IMG/VR virus record: IMGVR_UViG_3300030107_001446
Location: 76,244 to 140,243 of that record
Reading direction: 5' to 3' (one strand)
Origin: a virus
Length of the DNA: 64,000 nucleotides
Shown: positions 2 to 25,469 of the stretch, in pieces
Layout of the letters: each line of letters begins with the position of its first letter
Numbering within the stretch: position 1 is the stretch's first letter
The notes under the pieces: generated by a model
Seen by the model: the letters and a program-made list of their open reading frames with translations, nothing else
Told to the model about the DNA's origin: nothing
The model's database searches: none
Program-made: the position numbers and the translations under genes

Positions 2-169
2 AGTGTCGTAGATGCTAACGGTAAAGTTGTTCCTACATGGGGTGACGTGCTTAACAGAGCAAACCTAGGTATGGAAGTTATGCATGAAAGAAATGCACAC
101 AATTTCCCACTCGACCTTGCTGCTGCTGAGTCAACACAAGTTGCTTTAACAGCACCATCTATCGGTTGA
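2..169 (+). CDS. psbA: Photosystem II D1 protein, C-terminal end (partial)
   Basis: This is the last 55 codons of psbA; the rest lies before the window. D1 is the thylakoid reaction-centre subunit that binds the oxygen-evolving Mn cluster. The visible part carries the C-terminal Mn ligands in the expected order: His-Glu (332/333 in standard numbering), His337, Asp342 and the LDLA sequence ending at Ala344, after which the precursor is cleaved. A 15-residue tail ending in APSIG follows the cleavage site. Phage psbA is transcribed in infection to keep photosynthesis running while host D1 turns over. A strong terminator follows directly. Identification is secure; copy completeness cannot be judged. 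Confidence 0.97.
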
Positions 170-194
170 CATAGATACTTACATATAATACAAT

Positions 195-217
195 GGAGAC
201 CTAAGGGTCTCCTTTTT
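195..217 (+). terminator. Rho-independent terminator after psbA
   Basis: GGAGACC (195-201) and GGTCTCC (206-212) form a 7-bp stem with a 4-nt loop, followed at once by TTTTT. It isolates psbA from the next gene, whose ATG is only a few bases further on. Confidence 0.9.
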
Positions 218-223
218 ATTGCA

Positions 224-826
224 ATGAATTATAATATAGATCCAATCTATCCTACCCCTGTCTACTGGGCATACGTTGATAACTTTAACATCATACAGAA
301 GGAGTTACAATCAACAGTAGATAAGATAGACTTCAAAGGTGTCCAAGGATGGGGCACGACTCACCTACTATCTGACCCAGACTTTAGAGAGAATGTGTTA
401 GAGAAGTATGAGTGTAATATTTTTATAGAAGAATTAACTAAACATTTAAAACAATATCTGTATACTATTAACTATGGTGAGCCAGGTCAGTGGAAGATAC
501 AAGACTCTTGGTTTGCTAAGTTTAATAAAGGACACTATGCACACATCCATTCACATGGACATGCAGATATAGCAGGAGTATATTATTTCCAGACTAACAA
601 TGAGGATGGTACTATATTCTTTGAAGCACCATCAAAATGCATGGCTAATGCTAAGTGTTATAGACCACCAAGATATGAGCAGAGGGCTGAAGCAGGTAAG
701 ATATTATTTTTCCCTGGTTGGTTAGAGCATGGAGTTACAACCAACACATCAGATGAAAGTAGAATAAGTTTATCATTTAATATATGGTTAGAAGCATCGG
801 GTGGCAGTGAAACATGGAGAGAATAG
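224..826 (+). CDS. 2OG-Fe(II) oxygenase
   Basis: This 200-residue protein has the double-stranded beta-helix oxygenase pattern common in cyanophages. It begins with an IYPTPVYW segment, has a His-x-His metal site near residues 109-111 followed by AGVYYF, and ends with LFFPGWLEHGV (distal His) and ESRISLSFN (Arg for 2-oxoglutarate). Such enzymes use Fe(II), O2 and 2-oxoglutarate to hydroxylate a substrate, which is unknown here. It starts 7 bases after the psbA terminator T-run without a clear ribosome binding site. It overlaps the following halogenase-like gene by 13 nt, which suggests co-translation and a shared role. Family call is firm; substrate is not known. Confidence 0.85.
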   Translation: MNYNIDPIYPTPVYWAYVDNFNIIQKELQSTVDKIDFKGVQGWGTTHLLSDPDFRENVLEKYECNIFIEELTKHLKQYLYTINYGEPGQWKIQDSWFAKFNKGHYAHIHSHGHADIAGVYYFQTNNEDGTIFFEAPSKCMANAKCYRPPRYEQRAEAGKILFFPGWLEHGVTTNTSDESRISLSFNIWLEASGGSETWRE

Positions 827-12539: not shown

Positions 12540-13158
12540 TGTCCTAAGCGTACCATTCTATAAGTTCTACTACCCTGAGGAGAAGAGAGATGGTGTGCTA
12601 CAGACCCTTAAGGGTCTTAGCTACAGACACAATGACACCAACTGGATTTGGGATGGGGTACCTTTGGATGGTGTAGGAGGCAGTGACCTCTATAATATAC
12701 CTGACCTCAAGGATCTTTTCGACTGGATGCAAGACTGCATGGCCGAAATCGAGGAAGATATGGGTATCACTACAAATATGGTGTGTAATTCTGCATGGGC
12801 TAATCTAAATAAGACTGGGGAGTGGTTCTTTGACCACACTCATTCAAATTGTTTTATGTCCAGTAACTATTACGCATCAGGTGATTACAATGACGTAACA
12901 CATTGGGTGCATCCTAATCCATGGTTTCACTACTCTAATATATGGCCTTGCGGTGCATGGACAGAGGAGAAATACAACCTAGTCCACAATGAACCTACCG
13001 AAGCAGGTAAGTTTATTGTATTTCCACCTGCTATACAACACAGAGCATTGCCAAATACATCTAAAGATGATAGAATAACCATAGCAGCAAATTGGTTCCC
13101 CACAGGACTAATTAATGCAAGTGGAGTATCCCACCTAAACGTTAAAGTTATACAATGA
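12529..13158 (+). CDS. 2OG-Fe(II) oxygenase
   Basis: 209 residues. The cyanophage oxygenase pattern is present: VPFYKFYYPEE start, WANLNKTGEWFFDHTHSN with an HxH metal site, a beta segment SSNYYASGD, then GKFIVFPPAIQHRALPNTS with the distal His and DRITIAANW with the 2-oxoglutarate Arg. All key residues look intact. The substrate is unknown. It is embedded in the replication/transcription block and overlaps gp33. Confidence 0.82.
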   Translation: MKSDVLSVPFYKFYYPEEKRDGVLQTLKGLSYRHNDTNWIWDGVPLDGVGGSDLYNIPDLKDLFDWMQDCMAEIEEDMGITTNMVCNSAWANLNKTGEWFFDHTHSNCFMSSNYYASGDYNDVTHWVHPNPWFHYSNIWPCGAWTEEKYNLVHNEPTEAGKFIVFPPAIQHRALPNTSKDDRITIAANWFPTGLINASGVSHLNVKVIQ

Positions 13159-13400
13159 AAGAGATAGAGGATAAGTTTATGACACAGGGGAAGTTTACTT
13201 CGCTTGTAGAGGACAGACATAAAGCAAGCAACGGACTAATCAATTATATTGAAGCAGTAGCTTCTGTGTGCGAAGAGTTTGATATAGAGGTAACTACAGT
13301 TGGTAAACTGATATCTAAACCTCTAAAAGATAAGATTAAATGGGACGCACAGCAACTTAATTATATTAAACGGACAAGTAGAGGCATTTTAAACCTATGA
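13155..13400 (+). CDS. 33: Late transcription co-activator gp33-like
   Basis: 81 residues. The pattern KFTSLVEDRHKA, INYIEAVASVCEEFDIE, KLISKPLKDKI matches my recollection of cyanophage gp33. In T4, gp33 links RNA polymerase beta-flap to the sliding clamp and with gp55 switches on late genes. It is shorter than T4 gp33 (112 residues), as is usual in cyanophages. Position just before gp32 is as expected. The presence of TATAAATA promoters in this genome agrees with a gp33/gp55 late system. Confidence 0.75.
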   Translation: MKEIEDKFMTQGKFTSLVEDRHKASNGLINYIEAVASVCEEFDIEVTTVGKLISKPLKDKIKWDAQQLNYIKRTSRGILNL

Positions 13401-17871: not shown

Positions 17872-18347
17872 GCGTTTTTGCCGACATAAAAGAATTAGCT
17901 GGTGGTATGCCAATGAATAAGACTTGGTATAGAGAGCAGTTACAGTATGGTCTTGAAGAGTATACAGGTGCTTTTGAGGTGGGTGATATTATATTCTTTA
18001 ATTATTCAGCAGCGACACCAGATCTACTATTTTGGGATACATTCCCTATGGTACTAATAGTTGATGTTGATTATGATAAGATGCAGTTTTCAGGTGGTAA
18101 CTTACATTATCTGAGACCAACTACTAGGGTAACCATAGCTGGTAACTGGGCTGATGGTGGTATTTCATTTCCTATGCGTTGCTATCATAAATACTTTATA
18201 TCTAATGCTACCAGAGTGTATAGAGTCCCTCAAGAAGACCTACATGAAATGGTACCTCTACCAGTAGAGCAATTTGTTATAAGACCTAAAGGACTTGGGA
18301 AAGTAATGGAAGTACCTAGTTCAGTAATATGGAGTAGACTCAAGTGA
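17868..18347 (+). CDS. Possible DNA end protector gp2-like structural protein
   Basis: 159 residues. FEVGDIIFFNYSAATPDLLFWDTFPMVL followed by MQFSGGNLHYL resembles the core of proteins annotated as DNA end protector (gp2) in T4-like phages: a GxxYFFxY strand, a short D-x-FPLV strand and GxNLHYL. It overlaps gp4 and the next tail gene, a suitable position for a head-closure part. I recall the family only loosely, so the name is tentative. Confidence 0.5.
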   Translation: MSVFADIKELAGGMPMNKTWYREQLQYGLEEYTGAFEVGDIIFFNYSAATPDLLFWDTFPMVLIVDVDYDKMQFSGGNLHYLRPTTRVTIAGNWADGGISFPMRCYHKYFISNATRVYRVPQEDLHEMVPLPVEQFVIRPKGLGKVMEVPSSVIWSRLK

Positions 18348-19075
18348 GTACTAATAGTTTTGATAAATTTAGACAGTTGATTGGAGGAGGTAGGAAAGAA
18401 CCTTCTAAATCAAACCTGTATACAGTTGATATGGCACTACCTTTCGTCTTAAGAAAGAAGGTTGATACCATTAGGACAGATTATAGAGAAGCAGTCGAAT
18501 CTCTTAGTTATCTTGCTGATCAGGTAGTAGTTCCTGGTAAAGCAATTATGACTGGTACACAGAGAGATGTAGGTGTAGCAAGGAATTTCGCCTATTCTGT
18601 TAACCAGTATGGTCCTTTAAGTATTGATTTCCTTGTTACTAAAGACCAGATTCATAACACAATCTTCCAGAACTGGATGAGCTATACAGCACATGATGGA
18701 GAGAATAGGGCAACTTTTTATGATGAATATGTGACAAGTATCAACATACTTAAGTGGGAAACAGGTTCTAACGTAGTATATGAAGGTCTTACTAAAGAAG
18801 GTAAGGTAGCAAGATCCAGACTTAATAGAGTTTCAGCAGTATGGCAATTCTATGGTGCATTCCCTAAAGATATATCAGGGATGACATGGAATAACGAGCA
18901 GACACAACTACAGAAGTTGACTGTGCAGTTTGCATACGAGAGATTTAGATTCGATACAGTAGATGACGGTAAATGGGGTGGTGATACTGACTCATATATA
19001 AATGAGTTTACTGATCTTGGTAGTGCATTATCAACAGATACATCCCAGAAACAAGTTGCAAAAGTAGGTTATTAA
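18344..19075 (+). CDS. 54: Baseplate tail-tube initiator gp54-like
   Basis: 243 residues. LPFVLRKKVDTIRTDYREAVE, VVVPGKAIMTGTQRDVGVARN and GPLSIDFLVTKDQIHNTIFQNWM, then QLQKLTVQFAYERFRFD, form the tail-tube-like beta fold. Similar cyanophage proteins are annotated as gp54, which sits on the hub and starts the tail tube. gp54 rather than gp19 (the main tube) is preferred from its position beside gp48, gp53 and gp4, but the distinction is not certain. Confidence 0.7.
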   Translation: MSTNSFDKFRQLIGGGRKEPSKSNLYTVDMALPFVLRKKVDTIRTDYREAVESLSYLADQVVVPGKAIMTGTQRDVGVARNFAYSVNQYGPLSIDFLVTKDQIHNTIFQNWMSYTAHDGENRATFYDEYVTSINILKWETGSNVVYEGLTKEGKVARSRLNRVSAVWQFYGAFPKDISGMTWNNEQTQLQKLTVQFAYERFRFDTVDDGKWGGDTDSYINEFTDLGSALSTDTSQKQVAKVGY

Positions 19076-19076
19076 T

Positions 19077-19634
19077 ATGATGAAAATTGAATGTCCAATC
19101 TTCAAGAGGAAGATTAAGGACCATAGTGAGTTTAAGGATTCTGCACTGATCGCTATTAACAATCAGAAGGCAAGGATACGTGCAAATGACCTTGATATTA
19201 TGTCTGATTATGATATAGACAGAGATGTACCACGTCCATATCTGGATTTTGTAGAAGATAGGATATATGATACCCTAACAGAATTTACTAGGGAGATGAA
19301 GGGTGCATTCTTTCAGGGATTTGAAGTAAGGACTTTCTTCTATCAGCAATATACGAAAGACCAATATCACAGTTGGCACTGCCATGACTGTCAATTTAGT
19401 GGTGTTTATTATTTGGATATGCCAAGTGGTACCCCTAAGACAGAGTATAGGGATCCATTTACTGATGATGTCCATGAGTTAGATGTAGAGGAGGGAGATG
19501 TGGTAGCATTTCCTAGTTTTCTTATACATAGAGCACCCCCTAACATGATAGATATACCTAAGACTATAATTTCCTTTAATTTCAATTTCTGGAATAAGGA
19601 TCAACCATGTCAGTATACACGTCTAAATAGTTAA
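19077..19634 (+). CDS. 2OG-Fe(II) oxygenase
   Basis: 185 residues. A good match to the cyanophage oxygenase pattern: YHSWHCHDCQFSGVYYLDMP with HxH, then EEGDVVAFPSFLIHRAPPN with the distal His. The 2-oxoglutarate Arg position reads Lys (PKTIISFNFNFWN), which could still hold the cofactor. The gene is inserted between baseplate genes, two bases after gp54, with no break in the transcription unit, so it is expressed with tail proteins. Confidence 0.78.
   Translation: MMKIECPIFKRKIKDHSEFKDSALIAINNQKARIRANDLDIMSDYDIDRDVPRPYLDFVEDRIYDTLTEFTREMKGAFFQGFEVRTFFYQQYTKDQYHSWHCHDCQFSGVYYLDMPSGTPKTEYRDPFTDDVHELDVEEGDVVAFPSFLIHRAPPNMIDIPKTIISFNFNFWNKDQPCQYTRLNS
19623..19629 (+). promoter_or_regulatory. 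CTAAATA late-promoter-like motif before gp26
   Basis: CTAAATA is 22 nt before the ATG of gp26, the same spacing as for other structural genes. It overlaps the 3' end of the oxygenase gene. Confidence 0.45.
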
Positions 19635-19650
19635 CATATAATTAGTTGTT

Positions 19651-20355
19651 ATGCCTTTACCACAGTTAGCCATACCTGAATATGAAGCTGAGATGCCTAT
19701 TACAGGTCGCAAAATTACATATAGACCCTTCCTAGTTAAGGAAGAGAAATTGCTTTATCTCGCTATGGAGTCGCAAGACGACAAGCAAATGATGAAAGCA
19801 GTGAAGACAATCATTAGAAACTGCACCAACCTGAAATCCAAAGTTGAAGACCTAGCAACATTTGAGATTGAATTTATATTCTTGAAGATTCGTGCTTCAG
19901 CAGTTGGTGAAGTTAGTGAATTTAAGGTCACATGCCCAGATGATGAAGAAACTCAAGTAAAAGTTGAAGTACCACTAGGAGAAGTCGATGTTGTTATTCC
20001 TGAAGGACATAACAATAAGATTGATGTTGGTGGTGGTGTTGGTATTGAGATGAAGTATCCTTCATTGGAGACTTTTGTCCAACAAAATCTAACTGATACA
20101 CCTTCACTTGATGATGTATTCCAACTTGCAGCAGGTTGTATAAACCAAGTGTATGACAAGGAGGAAGTATATGATTCTTTCACTAAGAAGGAAGCACTTG
20201 ATTTCTTAGAGAACCTAAACTCAGAGCAGTTTGGTAAGATCCAAAACTTCTTTGAGACTATGCCTAAACTCTCTTATACATTAGAGGTAACTAATCCTAA
20301 GACAAAGGTCAAGTCAGAGTTGGTACTGGAGGGACTAGCAAGTTTTTTCGAGTAG
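19651..20355 (+). CDS. 26: Baseplate hub / tail assembly chaperone gp26-like
   Basis: 234 residues. The pattern ITYRPFLVKEEKLLYLAMES, then ATFEIEFIFLKIRASAVGEV and a cysteine-containing beta hairpin (KVTCPDDEETQ), is that of the T4 gp26/gp51 baseplate family. Members may act as chaperones for the tape measure or hub. The last codons TTT TTC GAG TAG contain a slippery T TTT TTC, and the -1 frame there leads without a stop into the next gene. The gene directly precedes gp51 and the tape-measure-like genes, as tail assembly chaperones do in other phages. Confidence 0.8.
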   Translation: MPLPQLAIPEYEAEMPITGRKITYRPFLVKEEKLLYLAMESQDDKQMMKAVKTIIRNCTNLKSKVEDLATFEIEFIFLKIRASAVGEVSEFKVTCPDDEETQVKVEVPLGEVDVVIPEGHNNKIDVGGGVGIEMKYPSLETFVQQNLTDTPSLDDVFQLAAGCINQVYDKEEVYDSFTKKEALDFLENLNSEQFGKIQNFFETMPKLSYTLEVTNPKTKVKSELVLEGLASFFE

Positions 20356-20409
20356 CGTTAATGCATGACAGTCTTGAAAACTATTTTAGGACTAACTTCG
20401 CATTAATGC
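20343..20409 (+). promoter_or_regulatory. Candidate programmed -1 ribosomal frameshift signal
   Basis: T TTT TTC (20343-20349) is in the correct phase of gp26 as an X XXY YYZ heptamer. After a 5-nt spacer, GCGTTAATGC (20355-20364) can pair with GCATTAATGC (20400-20409), a 10-bp stem with one G-U. The stop of gp26 (20353-20355) is two codons past the slip. In the -1 frame CGA GTA GCG TTA ATG continues in phase into gp51, giving a product of about 298 residues. The ATG of gp51 has no ribosome binding site. Confidence 0.6.
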
Positions 20410-20546
20410 AGCACCACAAATACTCTCTGACTGAATTAGAGAATATGGTACCATGGGAACGTGATGTTTATATACAACTGCTATTAGCTCATATCCAAGA
20501 GGAAGAGCGTAGGCAAAAAGCAGACGAAAGAAAAATGTCAATGTAG
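20361..20546 (+). CDS. 51: gp51-like protein, possible frameshift extension of gp26
   Basis: 61 residues. NYFRTNFALMQHHKYSLTELENMVPWERDVYIQLLLAHI is the pattern of the short proteins encoded after gp26 in cyanophages and linked to T4 gp51, a baseplate hub assembly factor. This resembles the alpha-helical C-terminal domain (the T part) of tail assembly chaperones such as lambda gpGT. It is much shorter than T4 gp51 (249). It lies 5 bases after the gp26 stop, in the -1 frame, without a ribosome binding site. Confidence 0.72.
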   Translation: MHDSLENYFRTNFALMQHHKYSLTELENMVPWERDVYIQLLLAHIQEEERRQKADERKMSM

Positions 20547-22967
20547 ATGTCCATCCGTAGTTACGTTAAAATTAAACCTATATCCGAGAAGGGAGCTTTC
20601 ACGGATGGTTTTAACGAGCTTCGTAAAGGTATTAATCAGACTGGTAAAGTTACTGAGTCTATTGGTAAGAACTATGTTGAGACACATAAACTAATAAAGT
20701 TTGAGAAAGAGTGGTTAGCAGATAAGCAAGAGACAGACGTAGATACTGCTAATTTAGAAGATAAAGACGATAAGAAGAAACATAGAGGTTTTCTCTCTCG
20801 TTTTGTTCGCATGTTCAGGAGGAATAGACGAAAGGAGACTGAGAATGCAGCAGAGGAAGGTGAGAAAGATGCTGATAAGGATGTAGATAAGAAGAAGAAA
20901 GAAGCTAAAGGTCCGATGAAATCCTTTCTGGGGATGATTACTGGATTCTTAACACCTATATTCAAATTCTTCCTAGCAATGGGTGTTTTGGATTGGTTAT
21001 CAAAGAGCCCAGAGAAAGCTCAGAAAGTATTTAAAGCAATATTTGCTATCGCTAAATTTGGTTGGGCGGTAGTAGGGTTTGGTATTAATAAGGTGATGGA
21101 TGGTCTTACCAATCTATTTGGTAAGGGATTTGATGAAGGTCCAATTAAGAGGACTTTCAGATTTATGGGAGGTTTCCTTCAACTTGCATCTGGTATTGCA
21201 GCATTAAGGTTTGCATCCTACATGGTGATGCCATGGAAGTTGATAACTGATGTTAATAGATTGAAAGATGTATTTGGTGGTCAAGCAGATCAACAGGGAG
21301 AAGCAGAAGCACAGGCAGCTTGGAGGAAGAAAGGATATAAGGATAAAAAGACAGGAGTAATATATTCAGAGAAAGAATATAAAAATATGCGTAAGTCTGC
21401 ACGTCGTGCAGGTAAAGAAAATGCATTCCAACAGAGAGTAGGTCCTACTGTTAAACAGAGAGGACGTAACCTCAAAGCAGGTGCATTAAAGAAGTGGAGA
21501 AAGGGTAAGGGTGTAATTGGTAAGAAGATGAAGGGGATTGGTGGTAAGTTATCTTCCCCTGGAATGATGAAAGGTGTTGCTATTTTAGGTGGTGCAACAC
21601 GTATTTTCTCAGGTATACAGAGTGGAGAGGATGCAACTGAAGCAGTAGGTGCAGGTATTGGACAGGCAGCAGGTGGTATGTTAGGTGCTGCTGCTGGTAC
21701 TGCATTATTAGGACCATTCTTAGGACCATTTGCACCTATAGTGGGTAATGCTATTGGTAGTTTCTTAGGTGAGTGGGTAGGTAAGACATTCTTACCAGTA
21801 ATCAAACCACTATTTGAACCTATTGGTAAGATGTTTAGGATGTTGTGGGATCTGGTGAAGGGTTTAATGAAAGAGACTGGTTACTGGGATTTCCTTGGTA
21901 CCTTATTCAAGTTTGTTGGTAAGTTAGGTCAATGGTTAATGACCATACTCGCACCACTAGGTAACTTCATTAAGATAGTGATGGGACCTGCTATATCATT
22001 GATAGGGAAGATTATTGGCATGGTTATAGGTGCTGTCAAGAATATGATAGCGTTCGCAGCTAATCCTATAGGGTTTGCATGGAGAGTTATAAGAGGTAAG
22101 GATCCAGGTGCTAATGTTGACCTGGCAGAGGAGAAGGCAGAAGGTGGAGAGGTAAAAATTGTTAAACGTAATGTACCTGTATTCTATGCAGCAGCAGGTG
22201 GTGCTATTAAATTAGTTAAAAGTTTAGCTGGTGGTGGAAACCCTGGACCTGTTAAGATTACTGACTACGTTGGTAGACCTACACCAGATCAATTCGTTTA
22301 TAGTTGGCAGCAGTTGAGAACTAAGCATATTGAGAAGACCCTTAATGGAGAAGTAGTTGATGTATCATCTTCCGAAGAATATGAAGAGCATCTTGGGTCA
22401 ATTGATCTACATCAACTGATAAAACATAATAAGGATATTATGGATGAGTTGATAGCACTCAAGAAAGCGAAACCTCATCATACTATTAGAGATATACTTC
22501 CAGGTGGATCCTTAGAAGGTAAGATACATCCTAGAATACTTTATCCAATACTTAATAATAGTGTTGCAGCGAAACTGACGAACAAACGTGTGGAGACTGA
22601 GTATAAGAAGTTCTTAAAAGACTATGACTTAGTTTATACTGATTCAGAAGGTAATAAGAAGGTAAGAGCATACTCAATATACAATGAGAATTTCTCCAAG
22701 GGTGGTGAAACTCCTATAGTACCAACTCCAGAACCTTCTATACATCATACTGGTGTCCCTACCAACATTCAAATGGAAATGATGGTTAAGGATAGGGATG
22801 CTGCTAAAGAAATGACTGAGTACCACTTCGCTGAGGAGGCAATGGATGACATTGCACCACAGGTTATCACTATTACAAGGAAAGTCCTTCAGCCCATAAT
22901 AAATAACCAGGGAAGCGGTGCAACTAAAGTTGTATACACTAAACCTTCACCAATGTTGAGTTGTTAA
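20547..22967 (+). CDS. Tape-measure-like structural protein 1
   Basis: 806 residues. A charged coiled-coil N-terminal quarter (Lys/Glu/Asp-rich, about residues 50-125) is followed by hydrophobic, Gly/Ala-rich segments (about 130-230 and 340-500) that could cross membranes. The layout and position after the gp26/gp51 chaperone pair fit a tail tape measure protein. T4 gp29, the equivalent, is 590 residues. A paralogue follows: both share a hydrophobic helix, then LDW(L/V)SK(S/N)P(E/D)K(A/V)QK and an Ile/Phe-rich stretch. Which copy measures the tail, or whether both do, cannot be told. Confidence 0.62.
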   Translation: MSIRSYVKIKPISEKGAFTDGFNELRKGINQTGKVTESIGKNYVETHKLIKFEKEWLADKQETDVDTANLEDKDDKKKHRGFLSRFVRMFRRNRRKETENAAEEGEKDADKDVDKKKKEAKGPMKSFLGMITGFLTPIFKFFLAMGVLDWLSKSPEKAQKVFKAIFAIAKFGWAVVGFGINKVMDGLTNLFGKGFDEGPIKRTFRFMGGFLQLASGIAALRFASYMVMPWKLITDVNRLKDVFGGQADQQGEAEAQAAWRKKGYKDKKTGVIYSEKEYKNMRKSARRAGKENAFQQRVGPTVKQRGRNLKAGALKKWRKGKGVIGKKMKGIGGKLSSPGMMKGVAILGGATRIFSGIQSGEDATEAVGAGIGQAAGGMLGAAAGTALLGPFLGPFAPIVGNAIGSFLGEWVGKTFLPVIKPLFEPIGKMFRMLWDLVKGLMKETGYWDFLGTLFKFVGKLGQWLMTILAPLGNFIKIVMGPAISLIGKIIGMVIGAVKNMIAFAANPIGFAWRVIRGKDPGANVDLAEEKAEGGEVKIVKRNVPVFYAAAGGAIKLVKSLAGGGNPGPVKITDYVGRPTPDQFVYSWQQLRTKHIEKTLNGEVVDVSSSEEYEEHLGSIDLHQLIKHNKDIMDELIALKKAKPHHTIRDILPGGSLEGKIHPRILYPILNNSVAAKLTNKRVETEYKKFLKDYDLVYTDSEGNKKVRAYSIYNENFSKGGETPIVPTPEPSIHHTGVPTNIQMEMMVKDRDAAKEMTEYHFAEEAMDDIAPQVITITRKVLQPIINNQGSGATKVVYTKPSPMLSC

Positions 22968-22970
22968 TAG

Positions 22971-25469
22971 ATGGCAACACCCGCAGTTAAAGTACAAAAG
23001 GCAACACTCTATAAGATGATATCTTATAAGGGTGCAACTTCTGGTGCTACAAAATATACTCCCCTAACAGCAGCTGCTGAGATGGGTAAGTTTAAGAAGT
23101 CTTTTAATACAGGTATGGGTGCGATGACAAGGGGTCTTAACTCCCTTGGTGCTACCCTGAACAGTATCTCTATCAATTCCCAGAACATGTTAGAGGGATG
23201 GAGAGATAGTATTAAGTCACAGATATCAGATAATGCTGCTCTCACTAAGAAAGAAGACAAGTATAAGAGGTTAAAACTTAAGAGAGAGACAGATAGAGAG
23301 AAAGCAGAAGAGAAGAGAAGAAAACTTTTAGCCAGAGAAGAGACAGAGAAGAATAATGAAGGTAAGCAACCACTCTTTAAGAAGATCAAGACGATGTTCA
23401 AGGAGGGTGCTAAAGCAGGGATAGGTGGACTGTTTGGTGGACTCTTAAAATTAATACGTTGGGCTATACCTTTATTACTAGGATATAAGATACTAGATTG
23501 GGTGAGTAAGAATCCAGATAAAGTCCAGAAACTTGCTCAGGGGTTTGCTGCTATAGGTAAGTTTGTATATAATGTACTAGCATGGTCAGCAGGGACAGCT
23601 CTGGATGGTATTACAAAATTCTTAGAGAATCCTATAAGTCTTAAAGGTATCTTTGGTCTTGCACAGTTTTTAATAGGTGCTGCACCTATATTCTTAGGGT
23701 TTGCATTCCTTAAGAAACCACTAGCAACACTTAAAGCATTGAAGTGGGTGGTTGGATCCCTAGGTAAGGGCATCATGAACATGATGAAATTTACCAAGGC
23801 AGGACAGAAGATGCGAAAGTTTTCTGTTGGTAAGTATGGTAAACTTCTTAACGGAGCTCTAGTTGGTACTGGTGCTGCAATGGCAACGTTAGCAGCAGGT
23901 GGTAGTGGAGCAGAAGCAGTTGGTGCGGGTGTTGGTGCGGGTGCAGGTCAGATGATCGGTGCTAAACTTGGTGCTGCTACTGGTATTCCAGGTGCGGGAG
24001 CAATAGGTGGAGCACTTGGAGGATTAGCGGGAAGTAAGATAGGTAAGGGTATCGGTAAGATGCTAGAACCCATTATCGGACCATTGAAAGAATGGTTTGG
24101 TATGGTCAGTAAGGTATTTAATGATGTCATAGGACAGATAAAGGAACCTTTTGAGCAGTTCTTCAAGACTCTTGGTGCTTTTATGTCGAAGATATTGGCA
24201 GCAATTGAACCACATATGCCACTCATTACTAAGATATTAGGTACAGGTTTTAAAGTAATGTTCTTCCCACTGATAATGGGTATGAAAGCATTGACTGCTA
24301 TTATGAAATTCTTTATGAAGGACGCAGGTCCTAAGGATGAAGTAGGTGGTGGAGGAGAAGAAACACAGACAGACACGACAGTAACTAAGAGCAGTAGCAA
24401 GGGTACCGCATCCTTTAATCCAGAGACAGGGAAGCGAGAGTATACTGGTGATATGACTGCCGATAAGGAGACTGATCTAAGGATTGCTAAGGTTAGGATG
24501 AGAATGCATCGTGGTATGGATGATGAAGAAAGAAAGGTGTATGAAGATCAGATAGCACGTCTCGAAGCAAATAGAGCGAATGGTGGATGGGAAATATTAA
24601 CATCAGAACAAGCAAAAGAGAAGTATGGTGATATGGATTTCGCCAAGGGTGGATGGATTAATGGTCCTCAGTCTGGTTACCCAGTATCATTAGATGGTAA
24701 GCAAACCTCATTCATTGGGCATGGTAAAGAGTGGGTAGGAAGAAAGTCAGGTGGTAGAGCATTTGTGGTACCATTCGACACTCCTGCTACAAGAAAGGAT
24801 AGTTCTCTCACCAGTCGGAGAATGGGTGAAGCTGCTAGAGGTGGGTATAGTTTACCTTATTCCATAGGTGGACCTGTATATAATGTCAATGTTGATAAAC
24901 TTGCTCCATCATTTGCACAGGGTGGCACTGTTGCTATAGTTAAGAAGGTAAGTAAACCTAAAGGTGAAGACAGACCTACTGGGATGAAGAGAGTCCTAGC
25001 AGGGTATGCTGATATGTTAACTGGTAATGCGTTTGATTTTGACAAACGTGGTGACATGAAGGATGGTATAAAGAATGTAATAAATCAGAAGAATGAGGAA
25101 GGAAAACCTGGTGGTCTGATGAGATGGATGGCAGGTGCTGCTGACATGATGACTGGTAATCTGTTTGATCTGGATGGACGTGGTAATGTTCTGGATGGTG
25201 CTAAGAGATTAAAGGATAATGTTGGTAACCAGATCAATGAAGCAAGAATTAAGAAACAGGTAGAGAAGTTCCAGAAGATACATGGTGCTATGCATAACCC
25301 TGAGAATTATACTATTAATGAGAGTGGGGAACCTATTACTCTAGGTGGTGCAGGTAAGCAGCAAGCAATTGTACTTCCAGGTAAGAAACATTTAGACTCA
25401 GATAAATTCGTTAGACCTAAGTTTGGGGTCATTGCTGATGCTATGACTGAGCCCGTGGAGTTAATGTAA
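22971..25469 (+). CDS. Tape-measure-like structural protein 2
   Basis: 832 residues, three bases after the first copy and similar in plan: charged coiled coil (about residues 85-140, rich in Lys/Arg/Glu), then LLLGYKILDWVSKNPDKVQK with a hydrophobic and Gly/Ala-rich region (about 155-460), and a charged C-terminal part with two similar units containing MLTGNAFDFDKRGD and MMTGNLFDLDGRGN near residues 680 and 725. Likely arose by duplication. Possible role as a tape measure or as a membrane-channel protein ejected with DNA. Confidence 0.6.
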   Translation: MATPAVKVQKATLYKMISYKGATSGATKYTPLTAAAEMGKFKKSFNTGMGAMTRGLNSLGATLNSISINSQNMLEGWRDSIKSQISDNAALTKKEDKYKRLKLKRETDREKAEEKRRKLLAREETEKNNEGKQPLFKKIKTMFKEGAKAGIGGLFGGLLKLIRWAIPLLLGYKILDWVSKNPDKVQKLAQGFAAIGKFVYNVLAWSAGTALDGITKFLENPISLKGIFGLAQFLIGAAPIFLGFAFLKKPLATLKALKWVVGSLGKGIMNMMKFTKAGQKMRKFSVGKYGKLLNGALVGTGAAMATLAAGGSGAEAVGAGVGAGAGQMIGAKLGAATGIPGAGAIGGALGGLAGSKIGKGIGKMLEPIIGPLKEWFGMVSKVFNDVIGQIKEPFEQFFKTLGAFMSKILAAIEPHMPLITKILGTGFKVMFFPLIMGMKALTAIMKFFMKDAGPKDEVGGGGEETQTDTTVTKSSSKGTASFNPETGKREYTGDMTADKETDLRIAKVRMRMHRGMDDEERKVYEDQIARLEANRANGGWEILTSEQAKEKYGDMDFAKGGWINGPQSGYPVSLDGKQTSFIGHGKEWVGRKSGGRAFVVPFDTPATRKDSSLTSRRMGEAARGGYSLPYSIGGPVYNVNVDKLAPSFAQGGTVAIVKKVSKPKGEDRPTGMKRVLAGYADMLTGNAFDFDKRGDMKDGIKNVINQKNEEGKPGGLMRWMAGAADMMTGNLFDLDGRGNVLDGAKRLKDNVGNQINEARIKKQVEKFQKIHGAMHNPENYTINESGEPITLGGAGKQQAIVLPGKKHLDSDKFVRPKFGVIADAMTEPVELM

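Follow-up and report, generated by a model that had tools for sequence, protein, structure and literature searches.

The 64,000-nt stretch of DNA analyzed here, referred to as the window, comes from a 199,258-bp IMG/VR record of a virus that infects ocean cyanobacteria, and the gp26 region of the window is nearest by DNA to cyanophages such as P-TIM40. It encodes gp26, followed by gp51 in the -1 frame and by an 806-aa ORF (Table 1). Both gp26 and gp51 belong to the T4 gp26/gp51 family: gp26 contains the PF12322 domain and the gp51 tail is homologous to the C-terminus of T4 gp51. A tail tube-fold gene (PHROG_45, 18344–19075) lies upstream, one gene away from gp26, and the gene in between (19077–19634) encodes a 2OG-Fe(II) oxygenase (PHROG_81, E = 1e-33). 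The two adjacent ORFs that follow gp51 (20547–22967, 806 aa, and 22971–25469, 832 aa) have their matches among PHROG families named 'endolysin' and, with weaker scores, among those of tape measure proteins.

Table 1 Features of the gp26/gp51 locus in window coordinates.
Feature	Position	Strand	Evidence and remarks
gp26 ORF, 0 frame, short form, TAC-N-like	19651–20355	+	234 aa; PF12322, E = 1.3e-69; PHROG_150 (baseplate hub), E = 1.6e-75
SD-like GGAGGG, possible stimulator, 9 nt 5' of slip site	20328–20333	+	Anti-SD energy compared with synonymous recodings
Slippery heptamer T_TTT_TTC, candidate -1 frameshift site	20343–20349	+	Same place in 137/137 distinct alleles; Phe codons without synonymous change
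0-frame stop TAG of gp26	20353–20355	+	Distance to slip site invariant; TAG, TAA or TGA in relatives
-1 frame extension: linker R-V-A-L and gp51 domain	20349–20546	+	Predicted fusion of 298 aa; matches PHROG_150 and PHROG_634
gp51 as conventionally read (ATG at 20361)	20361–20546	+	61 aa; PHROG_634, E = 5.7e-28, covering profile positions 61–120 of 121 only
Downstream compound hairpin	20355–20409	+	Outer arms 20355–20364 and 20400–20409; inner stem about 20370–20379 and 20384–20393
Downstream ORF, tape-measure-like or hub-associated	20547–22967	+	806 aa; PHROG_167 (tail length tape measure), E = 1.2e-10; PHROG_90 ('endolysin') better, E = 2.3e-31

Direct reading of the sequence bore out the arrangement described in the initial annotation. 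A canonical X_XXY_YYZ heptamer, T_TTT_TTC, is placed in register with gp26 (codons TTT at 20344–20346 and TTC at 20347–20349), with a single sense codon (GAG, 20350–20352) between the slip and the TAG stop. Past the slip, the -1 frame is open, reading TTT TTT CGA GTA GCG TTA ATG and continuing to the end of gp51, and the 5-nt spacer and 10-bp stem with one G-U pair are likewise present. In the predicted genes of the whole 199-kb record, T_TTT_TTC occurs in frame three times in a total of 63,272 codons, and the copy in gp26 is the only one that stands where a gene ends and a long -1 ORF is open.

The other canonical site of this type, T_TTA_AAC at the end of a gp33-like gene (window 13155–13400), before an ATGA overlap and with a long -1 ORF, served as a control heptamer. 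It was rejected as a frameshift site: in 80 relatives with 85–100% protein identity it is freely exchanged for other sequences such as CCTGCCA and GTTAAAC, whereas the ATGA overlap is retained. As it is not conserved in relatives, the gp33 heptamer is probably due to chance.

Alleles of gp26 were collected from two IMG/VR scans using gp26 patterns that excluded the slip site; together with S-CAM7 and the window, these amounted to 137 distinct alleles, from which 101 representatives with less than 90% nucleotide identity to each other were derived. TTTTTTC begins 10 nt ahead of the gp26 stop in all 137 alleles, the stop itself varying between TAG, TAA and TGA, and is kept in the named phages Syn1, S-SM1, RB11-B, S-PRM1 and S-CAM7. 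The slip site in gp26 is not a chance occurrence. A comparison of gp26/gp51 junctions across cyanomyoviruses, as proposed in the initial annotation, thus found both the heptamer and the -1 phase invariant.

Phe232 is encoded by TTT and Phe233 by TTC in each of the 101 representatives, and most other Phe columns of gp26 are mixtures of TTT and TTC. Codon 231 varies in amino acid (Ser, Ala or Asn), and the base before TTT is always T. With both Phe codons free of synonymous change and the preceding T invariant, the heptamer is under selection at the nucleotide level, beyond the Phe-Phe dipeptide. That no frameshift takes place and the heptamer is a by-product of a conserved Phe-Phe at the C-terminus of gp26 is hardly credible: although all representatives have Phe-Phe at this place and a GL..FF motif also ends T4 gp26, this explanation does not account for codon usage that is fixed here and free at most other Phe columns. 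In addition, the two codons are TTC TTT in T4, where a gene of its own encodes the fusion, and the control heptamer in gp33 was not conserved.

A fusion could also arise from transcriptional slippage on the run of six T rather than from the ribosome, as one inserted T gives the same -1 product. We consider this very improbable, since the run is followed by C and held in the X_XXY_YYZ register in 137 of 137 cyanophage-type alleles, and Ackermannviridae alleles carry four T only. Moreover, the base before the run is A, C or G (AGT, TCT, GCT and AAT being the codons tabulated), which suggests that the run has not been lengthened as slippage would favor.

The -1 phase by itself is weak evidence, since 67 of the 114 close same-strand gene pairs of this genome show it, more than any other phase. 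It would equally be expected if gp51 were a separate protein made by termination and reinitiation, with ribosomes stopping at the TAG at 20353 and restarting at the ATG at 20361. This ATG is located 5 nt past the stop, TAATG or TGATG overlaps occur in some relatives, and in many alleles, that of the window among them, the stop is soon followed by an ATG, which means that some separate gp51 may be produced. However, in the -1 frame up to +42, 22 of the 137 alleles are without any ATG, and 8 of the 137 are without ATG, GTG or TTG. The position of the window's ATG is Met in just 14 of 101 representatives, whereas the residues from the slip to this ATG are conserved as a -1-frame protein, the first being Arg in 100 of 101. 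Reinitiation leaves both this linker and the invariant heptamer unexplained, and as the origin of gp51 we regard it as improbable.

A more distant set of 53 loci from Ackermannviridae and uncultured T4-superfamily contigs extended these observations. In all 53, gp51 is in the -1 frame; T_TTT_TTC or T_TTT_TTT is found in 41, and 32 have no ATG, GTG or TTG start, which again speaks against reinitiation. The expectation that related phages keep the second frame in -1 therefore held beyond cyanomyoviruses at every distant T4-superfamily locus tested. The same phase was also found in phiM7, nt-1, phiAS5, Ps15, LPCS28, OLIVR5, EniLVp02, 3M, KpS110, SKML-39, Cygsa01 and K355, and the -1 arrangement of gp26 and gp51 was seen in Kyanoviridae, Emdodecavirus, KVP40-type Straboviridae, Menderavirus, Pootjesviridae and Ackermannviridae.

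In the GenBank records inspected, gp51 is given as a separate gene, truncated or left out. The Syn1 record has a truncated gp51 whose start is placed 53 nt downstream of the first base of the gp26 stop codon, and in the records of S-CAM7 and S-PRM1 gp51 is not annotated. Such truncated or missing annotations are expected if the real start of gp51 is the frameshift.

Two elements flanking the heptamer may act as stimulators. Averaged over the representatives, the upstream GGAGGG is the strongest anti-SD site of the last 100 codons. Over codons -9 to -5, the anti-SD energy averaged -7.09 in the 101 representatives in comparison to -6.10 in synonymous recodings (standard deviation of the means 0.16), and none of 40 control recodings was as strong as the real sequence. 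The E/R-G-L motif encoded here is also conserved as protein, T4 included, and for this reason the data lend moderate support to the SD-like element as a stimulator.

The downstream stem, which had been put forward as part of the signal, did not prove to be a conserved one. In the window, the hairpin region, folded in isolation, has a folding energy of -22 kcal/mol (z = -4.67) and the outer stem encloses a second 10-bp hairpin. This compound hairpin is found in close relatives of the window and is lineage-specific: all 10 outer pairs can form in only 8 of 99 representatives, and RNAalifold found no consensus structure, so that a conserved downstream stem was rejected. Nevertheless, the region just 3' of the slip is the most structured among nine windows compared (mean z -1.7), and structure may thus matter lineage by lineage.

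The -1 frameshift of E. coli dnaX takes place on A_AAA_AAG, with an SD-like stimulator about 10 nt before the heptamer and a hairpin as a defined part of the signal. The gp26 site resembles it in having an X_XXY_YYZ heptamer in frame and an upstream SD-like element, to which the lineage of the window adds a hairpin 3' of the slip. It differs from dnaX, which is a host gene, in the heptamer used and in that its own hairpin is not a conserved one.

Taken together, these data make it highly probable that a programmed -1 frameshift produces a gp26-gp51 fusion and, with it, a short/long pair of tail chaperones. Most ribosomes translating gp26 would stop at the TAG and yield the 234-aa protein. A fraction would slip back by one base on U_UUU_UUC, where both tRNA-Phe can re-pair with UUU, possibly helped by the upstream GGAGGG and, in this lineage, by the downstream hairpin. 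The slipped ribosomes would then read the -1 frame and make the 298-aa fusion of about 34 kDa, and, judging by homology and design, this fusion and gp26 would form a short/long chaperone pair equivalent to the separately encoded gp51 and gp26 of T4. What is seen directly is the site, its conservation, the phase, the many gp51 reading frames that lack a start codon and the in-frame fusion in T4, whereas the use of the frameshift during infection, how efficient it is and the action of the products as chaperones are inferred.

Tail assembly chaperone frameshifts in -1, among them that of lambda gpG/gpGT, were reportedly described by Xu, Hendrix and Duda in 2004 and have since been reviewed (PMC5009743). 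By analogy to gpG/gpGT, gp26 may represent the short (TAC-N) and gp26-gp51 the long (TAC-NC) tail assembly chaperone, and the use of such a device by cyanophage gp26/gp51, as suggested initially, is supported by the invariant heptamer and -1 phase across relatives. In such chaperone pairs, the first ORF has a conserved slippery site close to its end, through which the second ORF is reached in -1; this feature is present throughout the alleles, and the distant loci share the phase. As in lambda, a short and a longer -1 product would come from two overlapping ORFs, and pairs of this class lie between a tail tube gene and a tape measure gene. The neighborhood of gp26 includes the upstream tail tube-fold gene, and the downstream 806-aa ORF has tape measure matches but better matches to 'endolysin' families.

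The predicted structure of gp26 (pLDDT 88.6) was searched against 350,542 PDB chains. The first match was the HK97 tail assembly chaperone 2ob9, which was not significant (E = 0.8, probability 0.38, TM 0.19/0.37), and PDB sequence searches with gp26 and T4 gp51 gave nothing useful and detected no relation of gp26 to a solved tail assembly chaperone. In contrast to lambda, gp26 has only a weak fold match to this class, the slip site is T_TTT_TTC, and the T4 homologs have a link to assembly of the baseplate hub. Both T4 proteins, gp26 and gp51, are listed among the chaperones of hub assembly, and gp51 is reported not to be part of the T4 particle (PMC3004832). This listing, the weak match to the HK97 chaperone and the tail neighborhood point toward a TAC-N/TAC-NC pair.

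In T4, the homologous proteins are encoded differently. Genes 26 and 51 of T4 are separate and divergent, and T4 gp51 consists, in a single frame, of PF12322 (residues 1–201) and then the gp51 tail. T4 gp51 covers positions 13–280 of the 282 positions of PHROG_150 and the predicted frameshift product of the window positions 5–276, whereas T4 gp26 ends at 235; the frameshift product also matches PHROG_634. The C-terminus of T4 gp26, RGLKEFFELL, marks the point at which the frameshift product diverges, and as this end is encoded by GAG TTC TTT GAG, the heptamer is gone from T4 gene 26. T4 gp51 thus is an in-frame fusion of a gp26-like domain and the gp51 tail and T4 gp26 is the short form, so that T4 has two genes, and no frameshift, for the two products proposed here to come from one gene pair. 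A one-piece gp51 protein is found in more than 1,300 phage records, mostly enteric.

The proposed gp26/gp51 frameshift is a known kind of tailed-phage device and not a new kind. Vladimirov et al. reportedly identified tail chaperone genes of T4-like phages in 2022. The PRFect paper (PMC10885494) cites Vladimirov et al. 2022 for T4-like phages with separate short and fused genes, and the paper on phage Adele (PMC12846349), citing the same study, treats poly-T -1 signals as already known from the TAC-N genes of T4-like phages. The frameshift of phage Adele itself, of the Vandenendeviridae/Andersonviridae, is similar in that a poly-T -1 slip ends TAC-N and the extension is often missed in annotation, and different in its GTTTTT motif and phage group (PMC12846349). 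The G-T frameshift was described as widespread in long-tailed phages, T4 excepted (Atkins et al., PMC5009743). The gp26/gp51 frameshift, if true, would fit T4, long listed as an exception to tail chaperone frameshifting, as its long form would be a separate gene (51). It would also provide marine cyanomyoviruses, which are abundant phages, with their short and long tail chaperones; gp51 of these viruses would be the C-terminal domain of a fusion and not a stand-alone protein, and many database records would need correcting.

With regard to evolution, the -1 frameshift of gp26/gp51 may be ancestral in the whole T4 superfamily, a distinct gene that encodes the long form in a single frame having taken its place in T4 and close relatives. 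In one branch, formed by Ackermannviridae together with some phages of Pseudomonas and Vibrio, the ribosome would slip on a non-canonical NTTTTCA. We consider this combined proposal to have an even chance of being correct. The phages of this branch likewise have gp51 in the -1 frame, often with no start codon, and their junction carries NTTTTCA instead of a canonical heptamer.
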